A stretch of 51,651 nucleotides of DNA from Sphingomonadales bacterium BRH_c3 (GTDB lineage: Bacteria; Pseudomonadota; Alphaproteobacteria; Sphingomonadales; Sphingomonadaceae). The notes below the pieces were generated by a model. That model saw nothing but the letters and a program-made list of their open reading frames with translations, ran no database searches and had not been told where the DNA came from. The stretch spans positions 1-51,651 of the forward strand of contig LOET01000040.1 in NCBI GenBank assembly GCA_001515985.1, read 5' to 3'. The first letter of the stretch is position 1, and the number at the start of each line of letters is the position of its first letter. The position numbers were made by a program, and so were the translations under genes. Below are positions 12,767 to 38,115 of this stretch, in pieces.

Positions 12767-12768
12767 TG

Positions 12769-23201: not shown

Positions 23202-23458
23202 CGGCAAGGTCGCGGCAAGGTCGAACGCCCGAGAAGCCACGATTTCCAAGGGCTTTTCCGACCTTCTCGACCTTCTCGACCTTAAAGAGAGACTAAAAGA
23301 AAACGGAAACGGCGGCGATAGCGACACCGACCGCTCTCCCGGCATCGCCTTGGGCCAAAGGTCGATAGGGTCGAGAAGGTCGGTTTTCGGCACGGCTTTC
23401 TTGGGTTTCGCAGCAATCGAGGTCGGCGGGGATCGACCGACCCTGACTGGCAAGGTCG
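23202..23458. repeat. AAGGTCG iteron-like array, candidate replication origin
   Basis: The heptamer AAGGTCG or its complement recurs in this gene-free stretch: tandem 11-mers CGGCAAGGTCG (23202-23212, 23213-23223), three tandem 9-mers CGACCTTCT/A (23259-23285) in the opposite sense, then copies at 23358, 23376 and 23452, with near-copies GGGTCG and GAGGTCG. It abuts the stop of the helicase gene. Nearly 500 bp (22967-23459) hold no convincing gene. Replication-initiator binding is the simplest reading; it is inferred. Confidence 0.55.
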
Positions 23459-23459
23459 G

Positions 23460-25274
23460 TCAATACGGATCGTCATCACGAGGAGGAGGCGAGTGCTCGT
23501 CATTCCGCGCCTGCTCGACGATAGCCGTCTCGAAGCCCCAGCATTCGGAATCATCCCATTGCCAAGACCACCCGTGACGATCTTCAAAGGCCTCACGGGC
23601 GGTGCGCAACGTTGGCAGCACCCACCCCTTCGGACCGCCCTTTTCCCATTTCTCGAAGCCAAGCCCAGGATTGTGGATGAACCCGGTTTTGTCAGGCTGT
23701 CCGGCACCTAGAGTGTTTCCGATCTCGGTCGTTGTAATTTTTCGGCGGATGGCATTGGTGCTGTATTCGGCAAGCTGGCGCGAAGGCAGCACGAATTGAT
23801 CGTCTCCGATCTTACGCAGGTTGCTCAATGGCGGCAGATCACCGCTGACAAGTATGTCGAACAAAACTTTGTTGAAGCCCTTCAGCGATGCTGCCTTCTG
23901 CTCATTCAGGGCCGAGGTCTGCGGCACGTCATATCGCGGGTGCCAATCGCCCAAATCCATCTCAAGTAGATGGTGGAGGAAAGCCTGAGTGCCGCCGCTA
24001 TCGAGCTCGGCATACAGTTCACGCCACCACACGTTCTTCTCATGGTCTGGTGAGCCGCCCGGCGGTGCCTTGAAGCGGCTGGAGACTTTGAACACCGCGT
24101 ATCGCCGTTCGTCATCGCTAGCATCGACAACATGGGGGTCATTCGACGCGATTATGATCTTCAGTCGGTTGGGCGCTTGAAATGCATCAACGCCCTTCGG
24201 TTCTATCAAAACTTGGCCCTCAGTGATGTAAGTCATCAAGAGACCGGCGGTGTTTCTCTCACTCGGCGCTACGGCCTCGTCAGCGAACAAGAGACAGCAT
24301 CCATGTAGGTGCTTGTTGAAGTTAGTGGTCAGGGCCTTCTTACCGGCCACCGTGATGCCGTGCTGACCGAAAATCCGTCGCATAACGGTCGCATATGTGC
24401 TCTTCCCTGTCCCCTTTTCGCCTATCAGCGCTAAGGCAACACCTGCTTGGTCTTCGGGATGTTGTACCGCGTATGCGGACCAACGGATCAGGTAGTCAAA
24501 GCGGGCTTGGTCGCCGTCTGCTACGCCCTCGAACAGCAGGGTGCGAAAACGCGACCAGTCGCCCGGCTCGGGTTGGACGGCGAGCCCCTGCCACAGATTG
24601 AGGCCTTCCTCCTCATCCACGTGTTCATTCGGCCTGAACACCAGATTTCGATACTGTCGCCGCATCGGGTGTTCCAGCCACCACTTCCCGGCCGGGGTGT
24701 AGGTGGGGTTGCCCTCCTTCGTCTCGCCGGTCTGAACGCGCCGGTTGAGATATCGGTTCTTGAAGTCCTCGAATGATTGAGCCGCCACTTCCATCCGTTG
24801 CGGGTCAACCTCGCTCGGCTCCCACGAGATAACCCTCGTCTTACCCCCGTACATCTCGATCACTGCGTGCTTCGCATTCAACTCGCGCAGCATCGGCTCA
24901 TTCACTTCTTCATGCGCCCGCTCGATCTGTCGCTCCGCATATTCGAGCGATCTCTTCTGCGCTAATGTGTGTGCCGATATTCCGAAATCCGGGTCCAGCA
25001 GCACAGCGGCGATTTGCTCATTGCTGCATCCCGCGCGGATGAGCTCGGTGCATACCCCGAAGGTCACCTCGGACCGGGATGCGTAGCGCTGTTCATCGTT
25101 TGGATCATCGCCCTGAACGATCAGCATTCGGGTGCGCTTGCTCACCGTCTCGGGGAGCTCGTCTAAATCGCGCAGAAATGGTGGCACACCCTTGAGCTGT
25201 ACCTTCCCCTGTCCCGGAGCTGGAACGGCATTCTCTTCTGGCGCGGGTGTGAAATCTGATAAACGATACATCAT
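23460..25274 (-). CDS. DNA replication helicase (SF3-like, DUF5906-type)
   Basis: The 604-residue protein carries Walker A G-E-K-G-T-G-K291-S-T and the Walker B-like L-L-F-A-D-E-A, followed by I-I-A-S-N-D (sensor region). These mark the phage/satellite SF3-like helicases fused to or coupled with primases, as in P4 alpha-type systems. Residues 1-230 are not clearly assigned. The start at 25274 overlaps the primase stop as ATGA; a start at 25286 is also possible. With the primase it would open and copy the element's origin after excision. Confidence 0.85.
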   Translation of the reverse strand: MMYRLSDFTPAPEENAVPAPGQGKVQLKGVPPFLRDLDELPETVSKRTRMLIVQGDDPNDEQRYASRSEVTFGVCTELIRAGCSNEQIAAVLLDPDFGISAHTLAQKRSLEYAERQIERAHEEVNEPMLRELNAKHAVIEMYGGKTRVISWEPSEVDPQRMEVAAQSFEDFKNRYLNRRVQTGETKEGNPTYTPAGKWWLEHPMRRQYRNLVFRPNEHVDEEEGLNLWQGLAVQPEPGDWSRFRTLLFEGVADGDQARFDYLIRWSAYAVQHPEDQAGVALALIGEKGTGKSTYATVMRRIFGQHGITVAGKKALTTNFNKHLHGCCLLFADEAVAPSERNTAGLLMTYITEGQVLIEPKGVDAFQAPNRLKIIIASNDPHVVDASDDERRYAVFKVSSRFKAPPGGSPDHEKNVWWRELYAELDSGGTQAFLHHLLEMDLGDWHPRYDVPQTSALNEQKAASLKGFNKVLFDILVSGDLPPLSNLRKIGDDQFVLPSRQLAEYSTNAIRRKITTTEIGNTLGAGQPDKTGFIHNPGLGFEKWEKGGPKGWVLPTLRTAREAFEDRHGWSWQWDDSECWGFETAIVEQARNDEHSPPPRDDDPY

Positions 25275-25936
25275 GGGGTCGGCCACTTCACAACGGAAGC
25301 GGTTTGCTCAACGCGCCCCGCATCCCGCTTCTTCTTGTTGGGCAGGTTGCGTGTTCCGGGAAGGCGCATGAGGTGATCGAGCGACTGGCAATTGTCGCCC
25401 CCGAGCTTGTCGCGCAGGGCGATGTTATAGAGCTTTGCCGACGCCACCGCTTCCGGTCCGTCCCCGACATACAAACGGTCCTCCGGCACGAGCTGCCAGA
25501 AAGCTTGAAAGCCGTTGCCGCTATCCACGACGGCAGAGGGTGGCGGGTCGAAGTCCTCAAATGCCTTGTGGATACGCTGGCGCTCTTCGGTCCAGTCTGC
25601 ACCCTTACGAGGATCAGCATCGACATAGAGCATGTCCATCCACTCGATGTCAGCCTCTTCGGGCTTCTTATTGGGATTGGCGTCCGCCTTCACCGTGTTT
25701 GGCGTCCAGTAGAGATTGCGCTTGCCGTTCCACCGGCCCAGCCAATTCAGCAGGCGGTCGGGCGGGTCTAGCTCGAAGGTTCGGGTTTCGATGCCGCCGC
25801 CGTTCGGACAAATGGCCGATAAGACACATTTACCATCGGGCCGCATCATGCGGAGGAAGCGGACTGTTTCAGCGAAGGACTTGTCCTCAACGCTTCGCTC
25901 TTCGCCTCCGGTGGCGGAGACAGTAGGGTCATTCAC
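25271..25936 (-). CDS. primase-like protein (RepB/AEP-type)
   Basis: The protein (221 aa) shows M-L-Y-V-D-A-D-P (about residues 98-105) and V-V-D-S-G-N-G-F-Q-A-F-W-Q-L (about residues 134-147), with a later L-M-R-L-P-G-T-R-N-L-P. This set is characteristic of the RepB-like archaeo-eukaryotic primase domain of plasmids and satellites. The GTG at 25936 is chosen because GGGAG lies 7 nt before it; the in-frame ATG at 25960 lacks one. The stop is coupled to the helicase start, so the two act as a split primase-helicase. Confidence 0.82.
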   Translation of the reverse strand: MNDPTVSATGGEERSVEDKSFAETVRFLRMMRPDGKCVLSAICPNGGGIETRTFELDPPDRLLNWLGRWNGKRNLYWTPNTVKADANPNKKPEEADIEWMDMLYVDADPRKGADWTEERQRIHKAFEDFDPPPSAVVDSGNGFQAFWQLVPEDRLYVGDGPEAVASAKLYNIALRDKLGGDNCQSLDHLMRLPGTRNLPNKKKRDAGRVEQTASVVKWPTP

Positions 25937-26012
25937 GGAAAGTCTCCCTTTCCAAGCCAAGGTGATGGTTAGGGCCGTCCGACTTGCGTCTTCAGGCCGG
26001 GCGGCCCGTCAC

Positions 26013-26282
26013 TCAGGCGGCCTCAACCTCAAGAGCGCGCTCGCGCTTCTTCGCTTCGTCCCATTCCTCAAATTCGCTGCGGACCCATGCGACCCGGTTG
26101 GGCGATAGCTGGACGGGGAGGGGAAACTTTCCGCGCTTCATCAAGCGCTGGATGACTGTCTTGCTGAGCGTGCTCTCGCGCATCACCTCGGGCCAGAGCA
26201 TATAGATGGTCGAGCGCTGCTCCTCCTCGTCCTTCTCCGGCGCATCATCGGCGCGCTCTTCGGTGGGTGCCTGATCGGCCAT
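26013..26282 (-). CDS. AlpA-family regulator / excisionase-like protein
   Basis: The 89-residue protein contains the AlpA helix-turn-helix: S-T-I-Y-M-L-W-P-E-V, then L-S-K-T-V-I-Q-R-L-M-K-R-G-K-F-P-L-P and a W-V-R-S-E-F-E-E-W end. In P4-like and PICI-like elements AlpA proteins switch on integrase or act as directionality factors. AAGGAGG lies 6 nt before the ATG. The first about 20 residues are acidic and probably disordered. The motif at 26349-26372 lies 67 bp upstream. Well-supported family call. Confidence 0.88.
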   Translation of the reverse strand: MADQAPTEERADDAPEKDEEEQRSTIYMLWPEVMRESTLSKTVIQRLMKRGKFPLPVQLSPNRVAWVRSEFEEWDEAKKRERALEVEAA

Positions 26283-26335
26283 GTGGTCCTCCTTATCCCC
26301 GGCGGTTCGCTGCGGTTCGGGAGGGTATTCGCCGA

Positions 26336-26965
26336 TTATGAGTGGCGAGGGGATTTGCCCAATTCGGTACGATGTTCCTTTTCGTCCAGCCACCAATGGC
26401 GAAATTTGGCGGCTAGGTCCTTGCCGATGCTCTGACCACTGGCTGGGGCATGGCTCATATTCGGTTCGATAAGGGCGAGCTCGTCTGCCAGCCATTTTAT
26501 CGTGGCAGTCTTACCCATCTTCGCTTCGTGCCAATCAAGTAGGATGAAAGCAGCCGCCCGAAGCCCCTGCCATTGTGACGTGTGGCCCCGGCGAGATTTC
26601 AGCCCCGGGTCCTTCCCCCAATCGTTTGGCTCGCGCTTCAGGCCCTTTTCTCTTCGAGTAAGGAACTCGTTGAATGGCTCGGGCATGAGATCGTGGTCGA
26701 TGGTAAACAGCCAATACCAGTAGGCAATCTTCTCCGAGAAGGGCCACTCTGCGAAGCCGCGCGTTGTTTGGGCAAGCCATTGGAGGTCCTGCTCGATAAG
26801 GTTAGCAAGGTCCGGGTCTTTTGCGCGTATACCTTCCAACCGTGCTGGGGTTTGGGCATGGCGAGCCTCCCGGCGTGCTTCGCTGAACTTCCGCCCCTCT
26901 GCCTCATTGGCTCGGGCCTCAGCGAAAGCATAACGCGCGGCTTTCCTAGCCTCTTCCAACGTCAT
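26336..26965 (-). CDS. hypothetical protein downstream of integrase (209 aa)
   Basis: The start at 26965 overlaps the integrase stop as ATGA, so the gene is translation-coupled to integrase. The protein begins with a long charged helix (E-E-A-R-K-A-A-R-Y-A-F-A-E-A-R-A) and has a Trp-rich middle (W-P-F-S-E-K-I-A-Y-W-Y-W-L-F). I know no family. Its coupling to integrase suggests a role in excision/integration, immunity or control. The frame is open upstream to 27145 but only as a shadow of integrase. The promoter-like motif of the alpA-type gene lies within its 3' end. Confidence 0.7.
   Translation of the reverse strand: MTLEEARKAARYAFAEARANEAEGRKFSEARREARHAQTPARLEGIRAKDPDLANLIEQDLQWLAQTTRGFAEWPFSEKIAYWYWLFTIDHDLMPEPFNEFLTRREKGLKREPNDWGKDPGLKSRRGHTSQWQGLRAAAFILLDWHEAKMGKTATIKWLADELALIEPNMSHAPASGQSIGKDLAAKFRHWWLDEKEHRTELGKSPRHS
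26349..26372 (-). promoter_or_regulatory. shared upstream motif (copy 2)
   Basis: This copy lies inside the 3' end of the 26336-26965 gene, 67 bp before the alpA-type start at 26282. See copy 1 at 22413-22436; the core AATTCGGTACGA is identical in both. Confidence 0.6.
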
Positions 26966-28239
26966 GCCCAAAGCGCTCCCCACCGCAACAGCGCCTCGCG
27001 CACCTCGGAGGCGTAGGTGTGCTTGTTGTAAGTCCGGCGGAGCTTCTCGACCGAATGCCCAAGCACCTGTTCGATATGCTCGCCCGGGACGCCCATCTCG
27101 GCCATCCCGGTCGCGACTGACCGGCGAATGTCGTGGACGGTCCAATGCTCCATCGGCTCGAGCTCGTCCTTCTCCGCTCGCTCTGCGAGGATGCGGTCCA
27201 GCCGGGCCTTGCCCTTCGAGTATCCGCTCACCGGGGTCCTTCCGGCGGTCGAGGAGAACAGGTACTTGCCCCCGAGATCAGGGATGCTGTCGAGGACAGC
27301 GACGGCGGGCGGCGATAGGTAGATGGTGTGGCCGCGACGGCTCTTGTGCTTCGAGGGCGGGATTACGATGGCCGGCACTGTCTCCTCGTCGTCCATGTCG
27401 AGCTTGACCTCCTTGCGCCAACCTCGCTCCATCTCCGCAATCTCGGCCCGGCGCGCTCCGGTCAGGATTATCATGCGGTAGAGCGGACCGAAGGGGTAAC
27501 ACATATCCTCGCCCTTCTCGTTACCGCAGGCGTCCCAGACGCGCTGTAGCTCGTCCAGCGACAACACGCGGTCGCGCTCGACATACACCTCGTCCCGGTC
27601 GAGCCGCGTTATCGGATTGGAGGAGATGAGTTGCCGGTCCACTGCCCAGTGGAAGAGCTTGCTCAAGTGCTTCCGCATCTCGATTGCGGCGGCCTTTCCC
27701 CGGCCCACTGCAACGCGGTCGAGAAGGAGGTGAATGTCGGCGCGGGCGATCTGGGCGAGCTCCTTTCCGTGCCACTTCTTGACCTCGGGCTTTTTGAGCC
27801 ATTGCCGGGCGAGCTCCTCCCGGCCCTTGCGCTTCGCGTACTCGTCAATGAAGCGGTCGATCAACGCCTCGACCGAGCGAGCGGAACGGCCGGAGGCCTC
27901 CTCGCTGCGCTTCTCGATGTAGTCCTCGCCCTCCGCTGCCAACTCGATGACCTCGAGGGCCTTCCGCCGGGCGACCTTGTACGGCATCTCCGTCGAGCCG
28001 AGCGTGACGCGGCGGGGCGGCCCCTTCTTGGGCAGGCCCTTCTCCCCGGTTGCCTGACCAGAGACCCGATAGACCACTGACCAACTTCGTTTGCCGCTGG
28101 TCGTGATTCGGAGCCGGAGGCCGTCGCAGCCCGTGTCGATTATCTCCCGGCGGCGGTCCTTGAACGGCTTGAGGCCGTCTATGTCCGTGTTGGCGAGCCG
28201 CCTGCGCTCCATCGGCTCCCGCTTCTTCCTGTCTGCCAT
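26962..28239 (-). CDS. int: tyrosine-type integrase (P4-like)
   Basis: The 425-residue recombinase has the catalytic residues R263 (L-T-G-A-R-R), H369-x-x-R372 (V-H-D-I-R-R), H395 (L-G-H-S) and nucleophile Y404 (R-R-T-Y). The N-terminal DUF4102-like arm-binding domain (D-G-L-R-L-R-I-T-T-S-G-K-R-S-W) identifies the P4 family, which commonly inserts in tRNA genes. GGAG lies 6 nt before the ATG. The gene reads away from the right repeat, 170 bp inside it, with a cluster of GGGATACCG sites in the promoter region. It should catalyse insertion into tRNA-Gly. All key residues are intact. Confidence 0.95.
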   Translation of the reverse strand: MADRKKREPMERRRLANTDIDGLKPFKDRRREIIDTGCDGLRLRITTSGKRSWSVVYRVSGQATGEKGLPKKGPPRRVTLGSTEMPYKVARRKALEVIELAAEGEDYIEKRSEEASGRSARSVEALIDRFIDEYAKRKGREELARQWLKKPEVKKWHGKELAQIARADIHLLLDRVAVGRGKAAAIEMRKHLSKLFHWAVDRQLISSNPITRLDRDEVYVERDRVLSLDELQRVWDACGNEKGEDMCYPFGPLYRMIILTGARRAEIAEMERGWRKEVKLDMDDEETVPAIVIPPSKHKSRRGHTIYLSPPAVAVLDSIPDLGGKYLFSSTAGRTPVSGYSKGKARLDRILAERAEKDELEPMEHWTVHDIRRSVATGMAEMGVPGEHIEQVLGHSVEKLRRTYNKHTYASEVREALLRWGALWA

Positions 28240-28253
28240 TCCGTGCTCCTTCT

Positions 28254-28282
28254 CGTATCCCGGGATACCGCTAGGGATACCG
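28254..28282. repeat. GGGATACCG cluster before integrase
   Basis: Two direct copies (28262-28270, 28274-28282) have a 3-bp spacer, and an inverted CGTATCCC (28254-28261) makes a perfect 14-bp palindrome with the first (28255-28268). It lies 15-43 bp before the integrase start and about 130 bp from the right repeat, so it may be an arm-type integrase site, an operator, or both. Confidence 0.65.
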
Positions 28283-28408
28283 GGAAGCGGTCCGCGCCGA
28301 ACCGCGCCGAACCCTCCGAGAGCGGGAATAGCGTGTAAGCCTCAGAGAACCTAATGTTTTTCGCCCCGGGAGAATTGTCTAGACCCCGGGAAAATCGCAA
28401 GAGGCGGT

Positions 28409-28464
28409 CCTTGCCAAGGTTGGGGTCGAGAGTTCGAATCTCTTCGCCCGCTCCATTTTTTCCA
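28409..28464 (+). repeat. right attachment repeat (attR)
   Basis: This copy of the tRNA-Gly 3' half differs from attL at four T-stem positions (GAGAG...CTCTT instead of GGGCG...CGCCT) and so still pairs. It is not a full tRNA: no D-arm or 5' acceptor strand precedes it. Confidence 0.92.
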
Positions 28465-28603
28465 CGATAATTCAATGCTTTGGGTGAGCGCACCCTTGAG
28501 CAAAGACGCTTACATTGGATGTCGATCTCACGCTGTAATCAGCATGTAAGCGCGACGAAACGAGATGCTTGTGTATCTTATGGAGGCGCGGCGAGACTGG
28601 AAC

Positions 28604-29050
28604 AGATATCCTGAACTCCTGGTCGTGATCGACGCCGAGGGAAGCTCGGGTCAGGTCGGTGAGCAGAGCCTCTATCTCGGCCTCGCTGATGGGTTCACCC
28701 TTTACATCGTGAAGACCCTCTGTGTCGGCACCTCGGGCAGGAACCGCGTTGCTCCAATACAGTCGCGTCCAATGGCTTCGAGAAGGCTGTAGAAATCCGT
28801 GCCTCGTGCTCCCATGCCTTCGGCTACGCGGCTGCGCACAGCAGCGCGGTTCGGAAGGAGGTTGTCAAATACGGCCGCGACTGCGTCACCGCGATATGCA
28901 TTGGGAGTGAGCGGTGAGGACAGCGAGACTGCGAAACGGTGCTCGCAGCCGAGCCCTTCGTCGGCATACCGGAACCTTGTTGCCCCGCTCGCGGCTTTCA
29001 CGAGGCGGACGTTGATCAGGGCATCGAGCGGAGCATGGGTCTTTCTTCAT
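28604..29050 (-). pseudogene. hipA: hipA remnant (toxin kinase N-terminal part)
   Basis: The reading from about 29020 to 28730 matches the HipA N-terminal region: A-V-F-D-N-L-L-P-N, then L-L-E-A-I-G-R-D-C-I-G-A. The frame then breaks near 28725; in the next frame G-E-P-I-S-E-A-E-I-E-A-L-L-T and D-Q-E-F-R-I-S continue the homology. It ends near 28604 at the point where HipA would read I-A-G-A-Q-E-K-T. The ATG at 29050 after hipB is also out of frame. So there are two frameshifts and loss of the kinase domain; the product cannot work. The decay lies about 140 bp outside the right repeat of the element. Confidence 0.8.
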
Positions 29051-29056
29051 GCCCTC

Positions 29057-29305
29057 TCAGAAGATGTTCACGATGGACTTGCTGCCTTTCTGGCGCGGCA
29101 CGATCTGCAGATCGAGGCCAAGTATTGCGATTACGCCGAGCAGCGCGTTGAGCTTTGTGTCCTCGCTGTCGTTCTCGATAGCAGAGATGGTCTTCTGTTG
29201 TGTGTCGCTGAGATTGGCTAGTTCGGTCTGGGTCAGACCTCTACCTAGGCGGTGACTTTGGATGATGGCGCCTGGCTGGTGCTGCGGTCGGTCGATCTGG
29301 AGCAT
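29057..29305 (-). CDS. hipB: HipB-like antitoxin / XRE regulator
   Basis: The 82-residue protein has an XRE-type helix-turn-helix at about residues 15-70 (L-T-Q-T-E-L-A-N-L, T-Q-Q-K-T-I-S-A-I-E-N) and a conserved C-terminal L-G-L-D-L-Q-I-V-P, as in HipB (88 aa in E. coli). HipB neutralises HipA and represses its operon. GGGAGG lies about 5 nt before the ATG at 29305. Here its partner is a pseudogene, leaving an orphan antitoxin, which may still bind DNA. A further upstream start would add an unrelated stretch. Confidence 0.85.
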   Translation of the reverse strand: MLQIDRPQHQPGAIIQSHRLGRGLTQTELANLSDTQQKTISAIENDSEDTKLNALLGVIAILGLDLQIVPRQKGSKSIVNIF

Positions 29306-29945
29306 AAGCCTCCCTGTTCGATCTTTTACCCTTAAAGGGGGGTAGGGATTCAATATACCTTGCGCGGTATAATCCGTCATCATGCCATGCAGGGGATGAT
29401 TTGCCGGTACCAATGGCGCTGAAGTGGTATCTCGAGACCGTAAACACACCTGGGCGAGGAGCGCGCTCCGTGACCGGCTGCCTGAATATCAGACTGAATG
29501 AACTAGGCGCGCTGATCGATATGAATCGGCAGATTGCCGCGTCTGAATTGGTTACTTACGGCAATGGCATAGCCGAAATCATCCGATCGCTCAGTGCAAG
29601 TGGATTCCTTTGCAAGGCAAATTGCCATGCAGAACGAGCGAGGCGAGCAAGGCACTCGCAGCAAGGCCCCGGGGCCCACTTCAGCTCCCGCAATCCGCGC
29701 GGGGTGATCTGTTCGCTTTTCTGGCAAGTGCGGGATCTGGTGACGGGGCCAACATATCACCGGATCGACCATGTCCTCACTGCGGACGTAGCCCGTCCGT
29801 TCTGACGGCGCACAGCCAGCCAAAGTAACGCTGATTTGGCCCTGCTCCACGAAAATTGCCCATAAAGGGGGACGGCAGTCCCTGGAAGGCGGTCTGCTGC
29901 CAGCCTGACTTTCCAACTAGCGTCTGCGCGAACAGGGAGGCAAAA
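29306..29945. other. gene-poor stretch before the FseA-like pair
   Basis: Open frames exist here (for example 29503-29916 minus) but none shows a recognisable motif, a good ribosome binding site or a credible composition. The stretch may hold a decayed element. I see no terminator, tRNA or insertion-sequence ends that I can support. Confidence 0.5.
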
Positions 29946-30143
29946 ATGGACAGACCGAACATCGATCCGGATGAGTACCGCAATTATGACCTTGCCGATT
30001 TCGCGCAGGAATTCCTGAGACGCAATCCCGAATATGGGGCCCAATACGAGCAGCTGCGAATCGCCGGCTGCCTGGACCCCGGCTCGATGGCTTGCAGGCA
30101 AATGGCCTACCCCTGGGGGCTGGAGTTTCCCGTTTCCGCCTGA
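29946..30143 (+). CDS. DUF6499 protein, first half of an FseA-like product
   Basis: The 65-residue frame carries the DUF6499 pattern Y-D-L-A-D-F-A-Q-E-F-L-R-R-N-P-E-Y and ends P-W-G-L-E-F-P then V-S-A-stop. GGGAGG lies 5 nt before the ATG. DUF6499 and DUF2285 occur fused or as neighbouring frames in integrative elements. In Mesorhizobium ICEMlSymR7A the two frames (msi172, msi171) are joined by a +1 programmed frameshift to form FseA, the activator of excision. The DUF2285 frame here also lies +1 and overlaps this one. As a free product this could be a decoy; the fused 272-residue product is the predicted active form. Confidence 0.82.
   Translation: MDRPNIDPDEYRNYDLADFAQEFLRRNPEYGAQYEQLRIAGCLDPGSMACRQMAYPWGLEFPVSA
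30126..30132 (+). other. predicted +1 ribosomal frameshift site
   Basis: The frame-0 codons TTT CCC G sit four codons before the stop at 30141. A forward slip of either TTT to TTC or CCC to CCG gives the same joined protein (W-G-L-E-F-P-F-P-P-E-L), moving into the DUF2285 frame. No independent start for that frame is evident. The exact slip codon is inferred. Confidence 0.6.
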
Positions 30144-30765
30144 GCTCACAGCAACGGCACATCCCGCGATCTGGCGTGCATGCGAGGCGCCCTCGGTCAT
30201 TGTCTTTGAAAAGGCGAGGGATCCGCATGCTTCGGATCAACCGGAGCCGGTATTCGCATACCGAGACATTGTCAGCGAAGTTTCGAACGCCGGTGGCAGG
30301 CATATGGTGATTGCAGCTCCGAGTGGTCGCCATCGCCTGTTGGTACGGGCGCAAAGCGCTGGCGCAAGGTCCGGATATTTTGTGGCCGCCGACGCCCACC
30401 TGGAAATGCGCCTGGCCGCAATCGCGAGGTATCATGAACCCAAGGGTCGAAGTTCCTGCGTGGTCGGTCGCCAGGTCCTGCGCCCTACTGATTACCAGCA
30501 GCACAGGCTTGTGCTCTTCCTGAGAATTCTCGATCGATTGGCCGATCCGGAAAAACCGCATCCTGCTCTGCGAAACATCGCCATGGACGTGGTCTATCCC
30601 AAGTCGCAGTTCGGTCGCGCGATCGAGTGGAAATCGTCATCCGAGCGCCGCCGTACACAGCGCCTGGTGAACGAGGCGAAACATCTGATGAGGACCGGCT
30701 ACAGGGAGCTTCTGAAGGGACGGGCCGGCGGATCGGGCTGCATGGACGATCGGGGCCAGTCATGA
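30130..30765 (+). CDS. DUF2285 domain, second half of an FseA-like product
   Basis: Read in the +1 frame, the sequence continues A-I-W-R-A-C-E-A-P-S-V-I-V-F, then R-L-A-A-I-A-R-Y and D-Y-Q-Q-H-R-L-V-L-F-L-R-I-L-D, and ends with R-T-Q-R-L-V-N-E-A-K-H-L-M-R-T-G-Y-R-E-L-L, all typical of DUF2285. The C-terminal part is a likely DNA-binding region. No start codon with a ribosome binding site was found in this frame near the junction, supporting production by frameshift. The neighbouring luxR and luxI genes echo the quorum-sensing control of FseA in Mesorhizobium. No element genes (rdfS, relaxase, integrase of its own) accompany it here. Confidence 0.78.
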   Translation, partial: PFPPELTATAHPAIWRACEAPSVIVFEKARDPHASDQPEPVFAYRDIVSEVSNAGGRHMVIAAPSGRHRLLVRAQSAGARSGYFVAADAHLEMRLAAIARYHEPKGRSSCVVGRQVLRPTDYQQHRLVLFLRILDRLADPEKPHPALRNIAMDVVYPKSQFGRAIEWKSSSERRRTQRLVNEAKHLMRTGYRELLKGRAGGSGCMDDRGQS

Positions 30766-30898: not shown

Positions 30899-31025
30899 GA
30901 TCTCTAAATATTTTGGAGAATTGCTAATCGTCGGGAGTGCAGATTGGAACTGCTGACCCCGGCACTTACTAGGCGGTTGGGAGACTGCGTGTTGGATTGC
31001 GCTGCGCCAATCGAGCGGTCAAGGC

Positions 31026-31778
31026 ATGGATCTGAATCTTGCGGAGGATTTCGCAGAAGAATTGCAAGGAATAGAAACCAATCAAGAGTTGAGCGACACG
31101 TTGAGGCGAGCCTCTGGTCAGCTGGGGTTCGATTACTTCGCCCTCTCCCTCGAGACGCGTGCAACCGCCAACACCCCGTCCCAGGTCCTGCTGCATGACT
31201 ATCCGGAAGAATGGGCGAAGGTCTATATCAGCTTCGACCTGGCGGGAAGGGATCCGGTCAGGCGGGCCTGCGACAAGTCATTCGTCGGCTTTGCCTGGGA
31301 GAGCATCGAGAAATTCATACCCTTGACTCGCGGTGACCGGCAGATGCTCGCTGTCGGCCGTGAATGCGGAATAGGAGACGGCTATACCGTTCCCAGGCAT
31401 CTTCCGGGCATGGCCAGGGGAACCTGCAGCTTCGTCGTTCGCAAGGAAGGTCAGCTGCCCAGGCAAAGGCTTGCCGTCGCCGAACTTGTCGGCGCGCTTG
31501 CTCTTGGCTGTGCCATGAAAACGAGCGGAATGTTCCGGTTGGCACCCAATGCGCGGCTCAGCGATCGGCAACGCGAATGTCTGCTGTGGACCGCTCGTGG
31601 CAAGACAGCTTCGGAGACCGCGATCATTCTGGGAATCAGCGAAGAAACGGTGGTCCAGCATCTCAAGATGGCGCGCGAGCGCTATGAGGTGCATGGCAGG
31701 CAATCCTTGATACTTTCTGCTCTTTTTGACGGCCTGATCGGTTTTGGAGACGTGATCAGCTGGCAGCGGCGCAACTGA
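31026..31778 (+). CDS. luxR: LuxR-family quorum-sensing regulator (AHL-binding)
   Basis: The 250-residue protein has an autoinducer-binding domain (about residues 20-160) with the key pocket pattern W-A-K-V-Y ... D-P-V-R-R and a nearby F-A-W, and a GerE-type helix-turn-helix (about residues 178-240: L-S-D-R-Q-R-E-C-L-L-W-T-A-R-G-K-T-A-S-E-T-A). It should bind an N-acyl-homoserine lactone made by the LuxI 94 bp downstream. Start at 31026. The regulator-synthase order and orientation are canonical. Secure family call; ligand unknown. Confidence 0.93.
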   Translation: MDLNLAEDFAEELQGIETNQELSDTLRRASGQLGFDYFALSLETRATANTPSQVLLHDYPEEWAKVYISFDLAGRDPVRRACDKSFVGFAWESIEKFIPLTRGDRQMLAVGRECGIGDGYTVPRHLPGMARGTCSFVVRKEGQLPRQRLAVAELVGALALGCAMKTSGMFRLAPNARLSDRQRECLLWTARGKTASETAIILGISEETVVQHLKMARERYEVHGRQSLILSALFDGLIGFGDVISWQRRN

Positions 31779-31872
31779 ACTTCAGGAATCGTCCATCCCC
31801 AGTTCCTGGTATTTCGCTTTCTACGTCAAACTGGTGTCATGACCGCCTTGTTCCCAGAACCAGGACGCCGTC

Positions 31873-32493
31873 ATGCCTTGCGACCACCTTTCGGCAATAT
31901 CCAGCCGGACTGAACCCGTTCTTGAAGCCATGTTCGAAGCTCGAAAGCGGGTCTTTGTCGACTTGCTCAAGTGGGATGTGCCGGTGCTGGATAGTAAGTA
32001 TGAAGTCGATCAGTTCGATACGCCTGATGCGACATACCTGATCGTGGCTGGCGAAAGAGGGAGACACTGGGCATCGGCGCGGCTGTTGCGCACGGATCAG
32101 CCACACATACTTGGACAACTCTTCCCCTACCTTTGCGACGGACCGGCACCATCGGGGGATGCTACCCGCGAGATCACCCGATTCTGCATCGATCCCAGGC
32201 TTGCGCGGGAGAACCGGCGTTTGGCGCGCAATCGGCTTGTTACAGCGCTCGTCGAACACGCGATCACTCACAAGATCACCGATTATACAGCGGTTGCCAA
32301 TGTTAGCTGGTTTCGGCAAATCGAAGCCTTCGGCTGGAATTGTCAGGCACTGGGCCCACACCGCGAGGTCGGTGGGGAATTGCTGGTAGCGCTGCATATC
32401 CGGATCGACGCGGATACTCCTGACAGGCTTGCCGCAAACGGCATTCATAGCACTTCGGTCCCAGAGCTAGCCTACGCTGGAGCTCTGCAATGA
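31873..32493 (+). CDS. luxI: N-acyl-homoserine lactone synthase (LuxI family)
   Basis: The protein (206 aa) retains the conserved core of autoinducer synthases: M-F-E-A-R-K-R-V-F (R, F), then K-W-D-V-P and E-V-D-Q-F-D (W, D, D), A-S-A-R-L-L and R-E-I-T-R-F-C-I-D. LuxI enzymes condense S-adenosylmethionine with acyl-ACP or acyl-CoA. The acyl chain cannot be read. AGGA lies about 9 nt before the ATG. The stop overlaps the phyH start (ATGA), tying signal synthesis to that oxygenase. Confidence 0.93.
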   Translation: MPCDHLSAISSRTEPVLEAMFEARKRVFVDLLKWDVPVLDSKYEVDQFDTPDATYLIVAGERGRHWASARLLRTDQPHILGQLFPYLCDGPAPSGDATREITRFCIDPRLARENRRLARNRLVTALVEHAITHKITDYTAVANVSWFRQIEAFGWNCQALGPHREVGGELLVALHIRIDADTPDRLAANGIHSTSVPELAYAGALQ

Positions 32494-33359
32494 CGAAAGG
32501 GCACAACGCGTCACAATGGGCACAGCGCCTCCTGAGGGATGGCTATTGCATCATTCCCGGCCTTCTTCCTGTCTCGGATATCGCGGAGCTCGAATCTGAA
32601 CTCGATGGGCAGTTCGAGCAAACTCCGTTTTGCGACGGCGATTTCTATGGCTATCGGACCAAGCGCTTGGGACGACTGCTTCGCCGCTCGCAAATCGCTG
32701 AAAAGCTTGTTCTCGAACCTGTCATTCTTGCGCTTGCCAAGGAAATTCTCGGCTCTGCATGCGACCAGATCCAGCTCAATGTTGCACAGGCTATCGAGAT
32801 CCACCCTGGAGAAATCGAACAGTTTCCGCATTGCGATCAGGACATGTGGGCTGGTGTCAAAGGTCAGCACGAATATCTGCTGAATGTCATGTGGCCGATC
32901 ACACCATTCACGGATCGTAACGGGGCAACGAGAATCTATCCGGGAACGCATAAACTCGAGATACAGTCCATCGAGGAACTGGGAAGTCCGGTCATAGCCG
33001 AGAGTGATCCCGGCTCGGCGATCTGCTTTCTTGGTTCGACTGTTCATGGAGCTGGCGCAAACCGATCGCAAGCGGTCCGCCGGGCGGTGGTCATCGGCTA
33101 CAGTCTTGGCTGGCTCAAGCCTTACGAGAACCTCTGGCTAGCCTATCCGCCGGAAATAGCGAAAACTTTCGCGCCAGAGCTGGCAGCTTTGACGGGTTAT
33201 GTGCAGCATCGCCCGAATCTCGGCAACTACGAAGGCCAGTGTCCGTCTGTCGTGCTGCGCGATGATGTGCCATGCTCTCCTGGAGCAACCGATGCGTTGC
33301 GCCCGGATCAGGCGGCTGCTGTCAGGGAGTTCGCGCGCAGCCAGCGGGCCGCCGGATGA
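32490..33359 (+). CDS. phytanoyl-CoA dioxygenase family protein (PhyH-like)
   Basis: The 289-residue protein has the Fe(II) facial triad H-x-D (F-P-H-C-D-Q-D) and a distal histidine in T-V-H-G-A-G-A-N-R-S, so it should be an Fe(II)/2-oxoglutarate-dependent oxygenase. PhyH relatives hydroxylate acyl chains or other small molecules. LuxI neighbours of this type are known in sphingomonads, which makes chemical alteration of the acyl chain of the signal, or of a regulated product, a fair hypothesis. Start and stop overlap neighbours by 4 bp each. Confidence 0.88.
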   Translation: MTKGHNASQWAQRLLRDGYCIIPGLLPVSDIAELESELDGQFEQTPFCDGDFYGYRTKRLGRLLRRSQIAEKLVLEPVILALAKEILGSACDQIQLNVAQAIEIHPGEIEQFPHCDQDMWAGVKGQHEYLLNVMWPITPFTDRNGATRIYPGTHKLEIQSIEELGSPVIAESDPGSAICFLGSTVHGAGANRSQAVRRAVVIGYSLGWLKPYENLWLAYPPEIAKTFAPELAALTGYVQHRPNLGNYEGQCPSVVLRDDVPCSPGATDALRPDQAAAVREFARSQRAAG

Positions 33360-33946
33360 GCCCGGCTCACGTTCTTGAACCGACCTTTCGGCGCTTGAAG
33401 CGCATGATCATGGAGGGTGCCTGGCCGCCTGGTGAAAGACTCGAGGCGCTTCGCATTGCCGACGAATTCGGTGTCAGCATGACGCCGGTGAGGGATAGCC
33501 TGAATCTGCTATCTGGTGCGCGGCTCGTCGATCTGAAGCCGGGAGAAGGTTATCGGATGGCGCGGATAGACGAGCAGGGACTTCGCGACTTGCTTGGTGT
33601 CGAGTCTGCGCTGCTGGAGTTCGCCATTGAGTCCGGCCCGGCTTGCGTTCAACCTGCAACGGCGAAGGCGGCCGCTTCGGGCTATGCGGACCGGGTCGCT
33701 TTGCTGTTCGAAGGCATTGCGGCGCGAGCGGAGAATGCAGCGCTCACCGAAACCCTGCGATCTCTGGGCGATCGGCTGCACGCCATCCGCCAGTTGGAGC
33801 CTCGGGCAATACCGGAGGCGATGCACGAGTTGGCGGAATTGGAGAGGCTGGCAGCAGACCGGGATCCGGCGCTTCGCGCGGCTTTTTTCAGCTATTATGA
33901 CAAGCGGCGGGAAACTGCGCCCATCCTGATCCGATTGCTGCAATAA
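33356..33946 (+). CDS. GntR-family transcriptional regulator
   Basis: Residues about 5-65 form a winged helix of the GntR type (L-K-R-M-I-M-E-G-A-W-P-P-G-E-R-L, then V-S-M-T-P-V-R-D-S-L-N-L-L), followed by an all-helical FCD-like effector domain. The ATG at 33356 overlaps the phyH stop as ATGA; the upstream open frame is a shadow. The 196-residue length is a little short for FadR/FCD members. Third gene of a luxI-phyH-gntR unit; it may respond to a product of PhyH or control signal decay. Confidence 0.85.
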   Translation: MSPAHVLEPTFRRLKRMIMEGAWPPGERLEALRIADEFGVSMTPVRDSLNLLSGARLVDLKPGEGYRMARIDEQGLRDLLGVESALLEFAIESGPACVQPATAKAAASGYADRVALLFEGIAARAENAALTETLRSLGDRLHAIRQLEPRAIPEAMHELAELERLAADRDPALRAAFFSYYDKRRETAPILIRLLQ

Positions 33947-34183
33947 TCGGGGCCCTGACCACCTCCTTTTCGGCAAGCGCTCAATACCGGGCAGTCTGGA
34001 CGAGCGCAAATGCCGCAAGGCCGGGATTTTGCTTTCCTCGTGGATGGCGCAATCGTTGAGCCACCAGTCTCGTTTCGCAGGCTGAAACCTGCCATATCAG
34101 AAGGCAGGCAACGCTGGTCTGATAAAAACTCCAAAGTTCATCCATTTGTGTTAGGCTGCGGGAAAAACTGGCGACTAACTTTG

Positions 34184-34199
34184 ATGACAAATTTGTCAT
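34184..34199. promoter_or_regulatory. perfect 16-bp palindrome before the HTH gene
   Basis: ATGACAAATTTGTCAT reads the same on both strands and ends 36 bp before the start at 34236. It is a strong operator candidate for the HTH protein itself or another dimeric regulator. Confidence 0.55.
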
Positions 34200-34235
34200 T
34201 TGCCGTGTTGTTATCGATTCAGTAGGAGGCGGGTC

Positions 34236-34721
34236 ATGAGCGGAGCAGACACCCTGACGGAAAAGCAGGTCGAAGTTCTGCAGCTCGTGTGCCAGCATTA
34301 TCAGACCAAGGAAATCGCACGCATTCTCGGCATATCGCCGCGCAGTGTCGACCAGCGCATTGATGGTGCCAGGCGAAAGCTCGGTGCTGCTACCCGCATC
34401 GAGGCCGCGAAGATTTTCGCGGCACGCGAAACTGCACCGTATCGACCAACCGGTGAGCCGTTCACTGTTCCCCCGGATAGTGGTTTTGGGCGACCACGGG
34501 AATTGCCGCGGGACCTGACGCGGTTCGAGGATGCAGGTGTTTTCGTAGAACGCGCACCCTGGGATCGGGCCAGTCCGTGGCGTATACCGGAGTTCGAGCC
34601 CCGGGATTTGGGAGTGGTCGCACGGCTGGTCACCATGGTGGTGCTTGCCGTAGCCCTTCTTCTCCTGGTGACTCTTGGCCTTGATCTGGCGCGCAGTCTG
34701 GGACTGATGATAAGCGTCTGA
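34236..34721 (+). CDS. LuxR-type HTH protein with C-terminal membrane segment
   Basis: Residues about 5-60 are a LuxR/GerE helix-turn-helix (L-T-E-K-Q-V-E-V-L-Q-L-V, K-E-I-A-R-I-L-G-I-S-P-R-S-V-D-Q-R-I). A proline-rich linker follows and residues about 132-155 are a hydrophobic span (V-V-A-R-L-V-T-M-V-V-L-A-V-A-L-L-L-L-V). A membrane-anchored transcription factor is thus predicted, with the HTH inside the cell. AGGAGG lies 7 nt before the ATG; the frame upstream to 34200 is unsupported. No receiver or ligand domain is present. The 16-bp palindrome lies just upstream. Confidence 0.8.
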   Translation: MSGADTLTEKQVEVLQLVCQHYQTKEIARILGISPRSVDQRIDGARRKLGAATRIEAAKIFAARETAPYRPTGEPFTVPPDSGFGRPRELPRDLTRFEDAGVFVERAPWDRASPWRIPEFEPRDLGVVARLVTMVVLAVALLLLVTLGLDLARSLGLMISV

Positions 34722-34770
34722 TCAAACCCTCAGCTCCGGTCGAGTTGGACCTAGAACCGGAGTTAAGCAG

Positions 34771-35106
34771 ATGTCTCTTTCCATTCCTGTCGCCACCGTT
34801 CGGATCGCCCGTGAGATCAACCAGGCCGAGGCGGCGATTGACCAGGCGCTTGCTGCCACAGCGGCGCTGATGCATTCCTCAATGGTCGCCCGCGTCGACA
34901 ATCCCGCGATTGATGCCGCTTGCGGTCACACTGCGCTCATGCGGATGCACAAGACCTTCGGCGGATTGCTTGCCGCGCGTTCCGATATGCTGCGAGCTCA
35001 CGGCAGTCTCAAAAGCGACGCGCGCGAATATGCCGGAGCAGACGAACCAACCTGCCCTGACAAGGAGGTCTTCACTGGCGCGGAGCTTGTCGAGGCAGCC
35101 GGATAG
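34771..35106 (+). CDS. hypothetical helical protein (111 aa)
   Basis: A small, helix-rich soluble protein with no family I recognise. Residues about 10-80 include A-E-A-A-I-D-Q-A-L-A-A-T-A-A-L-M and are likely two or three long helices. It lies 49 bp after the membrane-HTH gene and 47 bp before the next, in the same direction, so a small operon is likely. GGAG precedes its ATG. Confidence 0.65.
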   Translation: MSLSIPVATVRIAREINQAEAAIDQALAATAALMHSSMVARVDNPAIDAACGHTALMRMHKTFGGLLAARSDMLRAHGSLKSDAREYAGADEPTCPDKEVFTGAELVEAAG

Positions 35107-35153
35107 AACCTTGCGGGTTGACCGCCGCAGATTGCCTCGGGCATTGCGCAGCC

Positions 35154-35603
35154 ATGCTGCGCTACACTTTACAGATAGTGCTCCTCATCCTGGTCACGGC
35201 TTACGCCGTGCGCCGGGGTGGGAAGCCCGAGCGAAACGCAGCATTCATCCTCGTCGGACTTCCGCTAGCTGATCTGCTGTACCACACTCTATCCGGAGAT
35301 CAGGGCAGTTATCACGCTGTGGACCTGGTTCATGCAGCAATAGATTTGGCGGCGCTTGCAGCAATTGTTTGGCTGGCACTCCGCGCAGACAGGTTTTGGA
35401 CTTTATGGCTTGGGGCCTTGCAACTGATCGCCGTGCTGGCACATCTGATCCGCTTGCTGGAGGTGGGGATGCATCCCGTCGCCTACGCGATTTTCATCCG
35501 CGGGCCATTCTGGGGGCAAATGATTCTGGTTGCGCTGGGCACCTGGCTTCATGCGAGACGCAAAAGACAGGCAGCCGAACGGAATATCTTGCCAGGATCC
35601 TGA
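35154..35603 (+). CDS. integral membrane protein, four predicted spans (149 aa)
   Basis: Hydrophobic segments are visible at about residues 3-20, 30-45, 58-80 and 85-105, with a last one at about 116-132; the total is four or five spans. No motif tells the function. The ATG at 35154 is preferred because the first span starts there, although the ribosome binding site is poor. The 3' end reads over the possible start region of the RadC-like gene in another frame. Confidence 0.65.
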   Translation: MLRYTLQIVLLILVTAYAVRRGGKPERNAAFILVGLPLADLLYHTLSGDQGSYHAVDLVHAAIDLAALAAIVWLALRADRFWTLWLGALQLIAVLAHLIRLLEVGMHPVAYAIFIRGPFWGQMILVALGTWLHARRKRQAAERNILPGS

Positions 35604-35644
35604 GCGACGCTGGGTTTGAGAGACCGGAATCGAAGGCCCAGGCC

Positions 35645-36172
35645 TTGATGGAGGAATTCGGCTCAATCGCCGGTCTGGCCGAGGCGAGCGACGAAAAACT
35701 GAGCAGGTTCTTCGGCGATGAGGGATATTTCCTCGCCAGCCTTCTGGCTGCGCGCAGGATCATCGACGCAGGCATTCGTGAAGCGGCTTTGAAGACCCCG
35801 CTGGATCCGCTGAGCACAGACTTTCACCGGTATCTCTTGCAGAAACTGGCACACCGTCGCGAAGAGATTCTCCTGGGGTTCTTTGCCGACGACAGCGGCG
35901 GGTTCATGGCCGAGGCAATTCTGGGGCTTGGTGACGGACAGGGAGTCGAAGTTTCTGCGCGCGGCGTCCTCCAACGCACTGTTGCTGTCGGCGCGAGCCG
36001 ATTGCTGCTGGTCCATAACCATCCTTCGACGTCATGCGCTCCCAGCAGCAAAGATCTGCAGGAAACGCGAAAAATCAGGAGGATGGCGTCGACGCTGGGT
36101 ATCGTCCTGCTTGACCACCTGATCATCGGAGGCAGGGCCATATACTCGATTCGCCAGGGGGCTGTTCTGTGA
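35645..36172 (+). CDS. radC: RadC-like JAB-domain protein with short N-terminus
   Basis: The C-terminal half has the JAB/MPN+ site of RadC proteins: H-N-H-P-S-T-S-C-A-P-S-S-K-D (HxH...S...D), and before it a helix-hairpin-helix-like region (M-E-E-F-G-S-I-A-G-L-A-E-A). The normal RadC N-terminus is shortened by about 30 residues: in this frame homology-like sequence runs back to 35582 but there is no start codon except TTG 35645 (GAAGG 8 nt before) or ATG 35648. The start is therefore uncertain, and an ancestral start may have been lost. RadC is not a DNA-repair protein despite the name; its function is unknown. Ends GTGA into the next gene. Confidence 0.75.
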   Translation: MMEEFGSIAGLAEASDEKLSRFFGDEGYFLASLLAARRIIDAGIREAALKTPLDPLSTDFHRYLLQKLAHRREEILLGFFADDSGGFMAEAILGLGDGQGVEVSARGVLQRTVAVGASRLLLVHNHPSTSCAPSSKDLQETRKIRRMASTLGIVLLDHLIIGGRAIYSIRQGAVL

Positions 36173-36708
36173 ACGAGCATATCGATCTTCTACTCGAAGA
36201 AATCAAACGTCTGGAACGAAAGCTCGAAACAGCGCTTGATCAGCTGCATGAAGACCCCGCGTTCGCTCTTTCGAAGGGCAGCGAGGGCATCGGTGATGGA
36301 ACCAGTGCCCGTTTGGCCGAACTGCAGGATGATGTTCGCGGAATTGTACTCTGGAAGGCTGCCCGCCACGACATCAATGATATCGATCTGCGGGCAAGAC
36401 ATCTGCCTCCGGAAGCCTGCGAGGGTCCGGGCTGGCACATGTTGTTGTTCCTTCTGACTTCGCGGATCGAGCAGACTTCAGTATCGGTAACAGATACCTG
36501 CGCTATGGCGCGCGCGCCCCAGACTACCGCGCTCAGGCATCTCGAACTTCTTGTCAGGCTCGGATTGTGTCAGAAAGTGCCCGACCATTCGGATGCTCGA
36601 CGAATTTGGATTGGCATCAGCGACGATGGCTATTTTCGCATGGAGCATTATTACAGGGACAGAATGAAGGCACATCGCAAGCCATTAAACTTCAGAAGGA
36701 AACGATGA
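36169..36708 (+). CDS. winged-helix (MarR-like) regulator with coiled-coil N-terminus
   Basis: The C-terminal 100 residues form a winged helix (M-L-L-F-L-L-T-S-R, then A-P-Q-T-T-A-L-R-H-L-E-L-L-V-R-L-G-L-C and an R-R-I-W-I-G-I-S-D-D-G wing). The first about 30 residues (L-L-L-E-E-I-K-R-L-E-R-K-L-E) are a coiled coil for dimerisation. The start is GTG at 36169, overlapping the RadC-like stop. This HTH type is frequent in sphingomonads. Its targets are unknown. Confidence 0.8.
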   Translation: MNEHIDLLLEEIKRLERKLETALDQLHEDPAFALSKGSEGIGDGTSARLAELQDDVRGIVLWKAARHDINDIDLRARHLPPEACEGPGWHMLLFLLTSRIEQTSVSVTDTCAMARAPQTTALRHLELLVRLGLCQKVPDHSDARRIWIGISDDGYFRMEHYYRDRMKAHRKPLNFRRKR

Positions 36709-38115
36709 AGACAGGCAATCAGCGATGTCAGCCTGACGACGCCTGGAGCGGGTTGCGATCTGATTGAATCAGATGGGCCGCCTCGGATACCTGTTCTAAC
36801 GCGATTTCCGAGCCGCGCGGTGAATCCACCGCGCTCGAAACCGCTCTAATCGCCTGCTTGTCCTGACGCCGTGCAAATAGATCTGCCAACGCAGGGAAAA
36901 TGCGCGAATCCTGTGCGGCGAGCGCCCCTTTGGCGCGGCCAGACAATTGCTCACCGATACTGAAGGGTGCGCTTCGAGCGCGACATGCGCTTGATTGTTC
37001 AGCAGTGGCGATTTGAAGTTTGCCAAACCGGACCCTGTCCGGCGATCGCAACTGACGCCGTGCGCTGGCGCCCGGCTGGCTGGAAAGGATGCATGCGATA
37101 ACTGAATGCCGCTTGAAGAAAAGGCGAGTAGACCTTGGCGCAGCTCCTGTCAGAGCCGACGGGACCGTCCACCTGCAAATGCTGAATCAGTCAGGCGACC
37201 TTGAGAAATTTATCATCTTTTCAATGGCCATACTGACGTCAATCGCAGCGTGCCTGGCATTCAGCTTATCGCACTCCTCCAAGGCAACGCGGAGAGATGT
37301 TATTATCAATTCTTTAGCTTTGCGATCGTCATCGGGCATCGACATAAAGATACACATTCTTTCGTTGAACGTAAGCTTTCGATTCCATTGTCTTCACAAA
37401 AATCCATTCCATAAATGAGACCGTGGCAAATCAATTCATAATACTTTATTGCGAATGATAAACAATATCGTGGCTGGGGTAGGTTAATCGCAAATCAGGG
37501 TCTTTTTGCACCCAAACTAGCCAACGTGTATGTCTCGCAGGCCATTATCTGACGTCGCGGCGATCATCTTCCACCGATCACTGTCGCGCGCCTTTGCGAC
37601 TCTGGGTTTTATAGCTCAAGTAAACGGCAAGTGGCAATCTTTGAAGTCGTCCTGAAATTAGTTCTACAGTATCGCGCGCGCGGGTTCGAAAAGTTTGCCT
37701 GGTTATCGTGCGGGCGCTCCACTGCCTAATCATAAGAAAACCGAACGGTCCTTCATGTAGAAGACGAGCGGTGCTTGAGCTTGGCTGTGCAACGCATGAT
37801 CCAGACTGTAACGAAGGTCGTGACTGTGTGCCAAGCTGCAACGCCGCTTTGTCGTCCTTCCGGCCCCAGGCTTGCGTGACGCCAATGTTCATACGCATTT
37901 GAAACCTAGTGCCGCAATTTCTGTTGCAAGGGGGGGGCGATCATGGACCACATGCGGTTCGAATGACCTGGACACTGCCATATTGAATCGATCCTGATGG
38001 AGTATTCCTAGCCAAATCTACCTATTGCCGGATTGAGAATGAATAAAGATGTCAATGGCATATGCTTGATTGCAGCCGGGCTGGCTGCGTGTCCTAGATA
38101 TTCTTGAGGGGGCAG
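36709..38115. other. 1.4-kb gene-poor region
   Basis: No convincing gene was found. Frames such as 37089-37418 (plus) and 37578-37898 (minus) lack motifs and ribosome binding sites. The left part has an intergenic repeat (36741-36847); the middle (about 37200-37480) is AT-rich; an 8-G run lies at about 37930. The region could contain decayed genes, an RNA gene, or an insertion scar. Confidence 0.6.
36741..36847. repeat. intergenic palindromic repeat element
   Basis: It contains the 17-bp near-palindrome ATCTGATT-G-AATCAGAT (36758-36774) and a hairpin with 8-bp stem (36815-36822 with 36827-36834). Short elements with ATCTGATTGAATCAGAT are familiar from many alphaproteobacterial intergenic regions. 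Copy number cannot be seen in this window. Confidence 0.55.

Follow-up and report, generated by a model that had tools for sequence, protein, structure and literature searches.

Two overlapping reading frames at positions 29946 to 30765 of the window (the whole 51,651-nt stretch of DNA analysed here) very probably need a one-base slip of the ribosome for their expression, as judged by comparison with their homologues, and the FseA homologue that they would specify is most likely the brake and switch that decides when an integrative and conjugative element (ICE) jumps to another bacterium. We hold with considerable confidence that the observations as a whole are best explained by one fseA homologue that is made by +1 frameshifting and gates quorum-dependent excision and transfer of the ICE.

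The first frame encodes DUF6499 and the second, +1 relative to it, DUF2285. The frames, coordinates, overlap and junction are exactly as an earlier sequence-only reading gave them, and both domains were matched by Pfam profiles. The features of the split gene are as follows.

29946 to 30143, + strand: DUF6499 frame (PF20109, 1.7e-12), N-terminal part of the FseA-like protein, with its own stop at 30141-30143
30114 to 30119, + strand: TGGGGG, a Shine-Dalgarno-like stretch that encodes the conserved WG and lies 6 nt 5' of the slip codon
30126 to 30129, + strand: TTT C, proposed +1 slip site (tRNA-Phe, UUU to UUC), from conservation across loci
30130 to 30765, + strand: DUF2285 part (PF10074, 2.4e-18), in the +1 frame

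PF10074 is named after RovC of Yersinia, a type VI secretion regulator. RovC is described as a distant structural relative of FseA (PMC10359603). The junction reads TGG GGG CTG GAG TTT CCC GTT TCC GCC TGA, in which TTT (30126-30128) stands five codons and CCC four codons ahead of the stop, and the TGGGGG stretch encodes the WG of a WGL motif. A shift at TTT C would yield a fused product of 272 aa (61 + 211), whose N-terminal helix motif is AQEFLRRN in the window, with Q replacing the W of AWEFLRRN. As the earlier reading had noted, the DUF2285 frame has no start with a ribosome binding site near the junction: between the preceding stop and a point 150 nt beyond TTT, the single possible start is an ATG 92 nt before TTT that is not preceded by a Shine-Dalgarno-like sequence. 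By these sequence features the window appears to carry a protein of the FseA type, with an N-terminal DUF6499, a C-terminal DUF2285 and two frames that meet at a conserved +1 slip site.

The break was compared across 73 loci, made up of 69 of the 72 PF20109 matches in 149 family genomes together with the window, L056, G229 and G239 (G116:C81 and G011:C37 were left out, and the window's own match row was replaced by the window). DUF2285 lay in the +1 frame at 57 of these FseA-like loci, in the same frame at 14 and in the remaining frame at one (G007:323488); it was not found at G122:2290289, the last of the 73. Counted from TGG, the fifth codon was TTT followed by C in 55 of the 57 +1 loci (the exceptions being one TTT T and one locus without the WG motif), and TTT stood at that position in 1 of the 14 same-frame loci, two of which have no WG motif to count from. 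TGG GGG or TGG GGC was present in 56/57 +1 loci, and the codon after TTT was CCC in 26, CGC in 21, CCT in 7, CGT in 1 and TCC in 1. Phenylalanine codons in 15 long open reading frames of the window were TTT in 79 cases and TTC in 197 (79/276 TTT). The homologue comparison that the sequence-only reading had proposed, fused versus split forms and conservation of the slip codons, therefore spoke for its FseA-like identity and its +1 site. That reading had also allowed a slip at either codon, a choice that the comparison narrows: TTT-C appears tied to the split state, and because it is kept in the split loci while CCC varies (26 CCC, 21 CGC), UUU is the likelier slip codon. The contrast of 55/57 split loci with TTT-C versus 1/14 same-frame loci with TTT points the same way.

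The break was present at an identical position in all seven loci that share the gene order fseA-luxR-luxI-phyH-gntR (type A: the window, L056, G229, G239, G128, G004 and G036). L056, with 59% amino-acid identity, was the nearest relative compared at the DNA level in this check for a break absent from relatives; relatives at 92-99% identity were seen as predicted proteins. Relative to L056, both halves are under purifying selection (dN/dS about 0.32 and 0.28, dS about 1.2). The break goes beyond chance, because the break, the site and the +1 relation recur in 57/73 loci and both halves are under purifying selection; as read from these alignments, the +1 split arrangement is old and under selection.

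The sequence-only reading held that no ICE genes accompany the pair. This was contradicted: the right part of the contig, like contigs C128 and C129, agrees in order and identity with a single ICE type. On comparative grounds the window represents the left portion of an ICE at tRNA-Gly, the whole form of which (~60 kb) was seen at L056 in genome G246. The tRNA-Gly gene and its att copy in the window are as follows.

11120 to 11194, + strand: tRNA-Gly(GCC), the integration target
28409 to 28467, + strand: att copy (3' end of tRNA-Gly), left end of the ICE of fseA and right end of a defence island

The att copy and the tRNA-Gly end at 11148-11206 form a 59-nt direct repeat (92%). In G246, two tRNA-Gly att copies lie 59.8 kb apart, and fseA adjoins the left one, directly following tRNA-Gly; between the copies are fseA-luxR-luxI-phyH-gntR, genes for an ECF sigma factor, a TonB receptor, a lasso isopeptidase and a cyclase, trb, traG, relaxase, RPA and RDF genes and an integrase-like match. 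The window has, from the left, the att copy, fseA to gntR, an 11.9-kb insertion (33947-45796) and the ECF/TonB/isopeptidase/cyclase block to the contig end. The ECF/TonB/isopeptidase block is ICE-borne and common to the window and six relatives, and the fseA-gntR module is inverted relative to the ECF/TonB/isopeptidase/cyclase block in G229, G036, G128, G004 and G239.

In the genome of the window (G000), C128 and C129 carry relaxase, traG, trb and RDF (excisionase) genes that continue the G246 order and are closest to those of G246 (trbE 92%, TrbB 91%). Relaxase, coupling protein, type IV secretion system and RDF are on one contig in G246 and, by synteny, on C128 and C129 in G000. We infer that the window contig (C40), C128 and C129, as joined by synteny, form one element. 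An orphan chromosomal regulator without an ICE was rejected after these comparisons. The right att end was not found on C128 or C129, and contig C49 of G000 holds a second VirB4-type gene. A tyrosine integrase (26962-28239) is separated from fseA by the att copy; it was weighed as a candidate for the integrase of the ICE itself, and no similar gene was found on C128, C129 or G246. Two further observations concern the flanks of the module. A HipB-like regulator and a HipA N-terminal fragment occupy 28702-29449, between the att copy and fseA, with no HipB match in the L056/G246 stretch. The insertion at 33947-45796, which lies between gntR and the ECF sigma gene in comparison with L056, carries genes for a LuxR-type HTH protein, RadC, a PilZ protein, a response regulator and a PAS-GGDEF-EAL protein.

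The quorum-sensing neighbourhood of fseA comprises four genes.

31026 to 31778, + strand: luxR (autoinducer-binding and GerE domains, profile match)
31873 to 32493, + strand: luxI (acyl-homoserine-lactone synthase, profile match)
32490 to 33359, + strand: phyH (phytanoyl-CoA dioxygenase family)
33272 to 33946, + strand: gntR-family regulator

The type A order is kept in all seven loci, with other DNA separating luxR from luxI in G128; two further layouts occur in the family, type B (divergent, nine loci) and type C (luxR-luxI-phyH-fseA, seven loci). The unit is not indispensable, because G099 keeps luxI-phyH-gntR without luxR or fseA beside them (a 98%-identical RDF lies about 11 kb off); G208 retains fseA with a shortened luxR. 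Strong luxI matches among 100 genus genomes were confined to the window, G229 and G239; three further genomes matched luxI weakly (E 2e-6 to 6e-4), making six in all. In both G229 and G239 luxI adjoins the best fseA homologue of the genome. A wider survey gave 41 luxI places in 40 loci, out of 62 matches; phyH was next to luxI at 37/41 places, and a DUF2285 gene lay within 11 kb at 19/37 of these. A trbE-type gene was found 15.4-15.8 kb from fseA in G229, G128, G036 and G004 and 10-86 kb from it in 13/16 other lux-linked loci listed, the exceptions being G122 (167 kb), G139 (other contig) and G017 (1.4 Mb as numbered). At L108, L110, L112 and L113, luxI-phyH stands without fseA nearby and a VirB4-type gene is about 3.8 kb away; these loci are probably the luxR-luxR-luxI-phyH-X-virB arrangement ("topology T") described in sphingomonads (PMC4288048).

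Candidate regulatory sites were found before both luxI and fseA.

31795 to 31812, + strand: candidate lux box upstream of luxI (ATCCCCAGTTCCTGGTAT), an 18-bp dyad centred ~70 bp before luxI
29856 to 29873, + strand: candidate lux box upstream of fseA (TTGCCCATAAAGGGGGAC), with p 0.02 by the one-sided and 0.047 by the symmetric matrix versus random stretches

The lux-box matrix was grown from type-A seeds and scored >6 in 30/45 luxI upstream stretches, a count that is no test of the matrix because those stretches built it. Upstream of fseA, p was <=0.05 in 7/7 type-A loci with both matrix forms (versus 300 random stretches of the same locus), the candidate of the window being the weakest of the seven. 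The best type-A site fell at -117 to -123 from the domain start in 7/7 loci with the symmetric and 5/7 with the one-sided matrix; because these loci are related, their agreement is conservation and not seven independent draws. Type B gave p <=0.05 in 3/9 loci (one-sided) and 2/9 (symmetric) and type C in 0/7, with approximate placement of several stretches in each type, which were placed from the DUF2285 match. The link of the FseA-like pair with LuxR/LuxI, already proposed from the sequence, gained support from the gene order in seven loci and from these candidate lux boxes. Just before luxR, 30957-31025 holds a TTGG...CCAA dyad in the window and is partly conserved in type-A loci; there is no start codon ahead of luxR there in the luxR frame.

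Inspected by eye, the stretches that precede the RDF genes show an inverted repeat close to GYGACA..TGTCRC in 12/23 aligned loci and a GGGACA..TGTCCC variant in 3 more, with neither in the other 8. A strict FseA-box-like pattern occurs once on C129 (3461-3491), 85 nt before RDF, as well as before RDF in G246, G036, G128 and G229; G036 and G004 each have one match elsewhere. It is absent from the 51.65-kb window, 30 shuffles of which averaged 0.07 matches. The spacer between GYGACA and TGTCRC is 18-19 nt here versus 15-16 in the Mesorhizobium FseA box, which was compared without its letters.

From these features we propose the following mechanism. Ribosomes would translate DUF6499 and reach UUU-C six bases after the Shine-Dalgarno-like UGGGGG, where some would slip +1 at UUU to give the 272-aa DUF6499-DUF2285 activator; those that did not slip would stop four residues later and release a short DUF6499 peptide. 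LuxI would make an acyl-homoserine lactone, and LuxR with this ligand would bind the site before luxI and probably also that before fseA. The frameshifted FseA may then bind the inverted repeat before the ICE excisionase (RDF) gene, which the mobilisation genes follow; excision and transfer would then wait for quorum and be limited by the extent of frameshifting.

Two other accounts of the frame break were weighed against this mechanism. We regard as very improbable that the DUF6499 frame yields a peptide of its own while the DUF2285 frame is translated independently into a second protein that acts like the antiactivator QseM. Public annotation does give DUF6499 and DUF2285 as separate proteins on plasmids, DUF2285 alone occurs among the homologues found, and QseM is a DUF2285-only protein (PMC10359603); however, independent translation of the DUF2285 frame is disfavoured by the lack of a start preceded by a Shine-Dalgarno-like sequence near the junction in 6/7 type-A loci (G036 has one 70 nt after TTT), and it is the split loci, not the fused ones, that conserve TTT-C. 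It is scarcely credible that the gene is decayed or misassembled, with the break a mutation or sequencing error in an element falling apart. The HipA fragment and the insertion after gntR would suit such an account, as would the fact that strains closer than L056 were compared as proteins and not as DNA, but decay and sequencing error are disfavoured by the recurrence of the break (7/7 type-A loci at the identical position, +1 in 57/73 loci), and dN/dS is about 0.3 on both sides of the junction.

A further account accepts the fused protein and has it regulate its neighbours (luxR/luxI, phyH or the lasso-peptide genes) instead of excision. We consider this unlikely, although fseA is separate from the rdf operon and in seven loci accompanies luxR-luxI-phyH-gntR and the lasso block: the strict FseA-box-like repeat is missing from the window and present upstream of RDF on C129, and six of the seven type-A genomes have no other DUF2285 gene to serve RDF, G239 having a broken one. 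The preferred reading remains an FseA homologue that would act on the RDF gene of its own ICE.

Of the 73 proteins, 70 went into a quick tree, which was rooted at the midpoint and built without any Mesorhizobium FseA; it placed type A as one clade of 7 rows (SH-aLRT 96) among rdf-linked proteins and types B and C in a separate group of 18 rows (99), 15 of them labelled B or C; the remaining three were G114:4186326 (labelled "other", although its coordinates put luxI about 0.9 kb off) and two rows that have no lux link. A single clade holding every lux-linked FseA protein was rejected in this tree (AU test on the 22 rows labelled A, B or C, p 4e-31). On 3/3 named plasmids looked at, fseA sits directly before an HTH gene (presumed RDF), and a single DUF2285 (PF10074) match was found in each of G000, G246, G229, G128, G004 and G036. 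Because one DUF2285 gene is left per genome while the three plasmids keep fseA before the HTH gene, the simplest reading of these sequences is that fseA left the rdf operon and settled in the quorum locus; the direction of this move depends on midpoint rooting. In G239 (L049, L205), a broken second DUF2285 gene (C79:4352-4834) lies just before the RDF gene and may represent the ancestral copy linked to rdf.

In Mesorhizobium, FseA has been described together with its frameshift and its control by quorum sensing (PMC10359603, PMC5882170, PMC11963761, PMC8627217; review, PMC5009743). The split FseA of the window falls in a known class, because PMC10359603 describes a conserved WGL motif beside the frameshift site and a split form in about 61% of 4709 homologues; the same paper suggests a stalling role for the Shine-Dalgarno-like UGGGGG stretch. 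FseA (msi172/msi171) of ICEMlSymR7A from Mesorhizobium japonicum shares with the window the DUF6499 and DUF2285 parts, the +1 site beside UGGGGG-encoded WGL, an ICE with trb genes, quorum-sensing genes nearby and an RDF gene as target, the last as proposed here (PMC10359603, PMC5882170). In Mesorhizobium fseA follows traI2 in one operon (PMC5882170), whereas in the window it precedes luxR, with phyH and gntR after luxI. Unlike that of ICEMlSymR7A, the fseA of the window is at the tRNA-Gly end with a lasso-peptide block alongside, and no second DUF2285 (QseM-like) gene was found in G000 (82% complete), whose one PF10074 match is that of the window. The rdf-linked fseA of sphingomonad plasmids and ICEs, as on plasmid Lpl of Novosphingobium sp. 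PP1Y (NC_015579.1), likewise has separate DUF6499 and DUF2285 genes; the order that follows them (HTH gene, RPA, DUF2840, transglycosylase, DUF3363 relaxase, traG) is that of the ICE family here, but window-type fseA has left the position directly before the HTH gene.

The novR-novI-phyH(-gntR) loci of Sphingomonadaceae share the luxR-luxI-phyH order, one with a GntR-like gene after phyH (PMC5012321, PMC3704786). The term DUF2285 does not occur in the main text of PMC3704786, nor the term DUF in those of PMC4288048 and PMC5012321, whereas 19/37 luxI-phyH places here have a DUF2285 gene within 11 kb. FseA in combination with a sphingomonad luxR-luxI-phyH locus was not found in the open-licence literature, in which the Mesorhizobium papers say traI, so that the search for DUF2285 with luxI was narrow; DUF6499 was found there only in the Mesorhizobium paper, no match listed joined FseA with sphingomonads, and one review joined lasso peptides, integrative and conjugative elements and sphingomonads. 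That fseA belongs to a sphingomonad luxR-luxI-phyH locus next to a lasso-peptide cluster thus appears to be new, and this suggests that the frameshift-gated activator of the Mesorhizobium ICE is used in another lineage with different wiring. Tentatively, and at somewhat less than even odds, we suggest that much of sphingomonad luxR-luxI-phyH is a transfer switch of conjugative elements, that this locus captured fseA on two or more independent occasions (co-directional type A; types B/C), with frameshifting gating translation, and that in type A the quorum module may also time the lasso-peptide cluster. If so, transfer and peptide production would go together in type A, and a testable purpose would exist for many of the luxR-luxI-phyH loci that are common in sphingomonads and so far unexplained.

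The right end of the window holds the lasso-peptide block (45797-51651), which adjoins the quorum module in all seven type-A loci.

45797 to 46501, + strand: ECF sigma factor, in the ICE-borne block common to six relatives
46514 to 48943, + strand: TonB-dependent receptor, in the same block
48937 to 51090, + strand: Atxe2-type lasso peptide isopeptidase (NF033523, 795 bits versus a cut-off of 400)
51076 to 51603, - strand: C-terminal piece of an asparagine-synthase-like protein (lasso cyclase; PF00733 over cut-off), the gene running off the contig

Lasso cyclase models scored far under their cut-offs for this C-terminal piece, which is cut by the contig end. A lasso leader protease and a precursor peptide were not found in the window, which ends within the cyclase gene. 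A conserved split of the cyclase was considered and rejected, a frame change occurring only in G036 (L095) and one open frame in G128, G004, G229, G239 and G246. On the opposite side of the att copy, the stretch from tRNA-Gly to that copy (11120-28467) is a separate defence island with an ApeA-like HEPN protein, type III restriction-modification genes, a DUF5906 gene and the tyrosine integrase.
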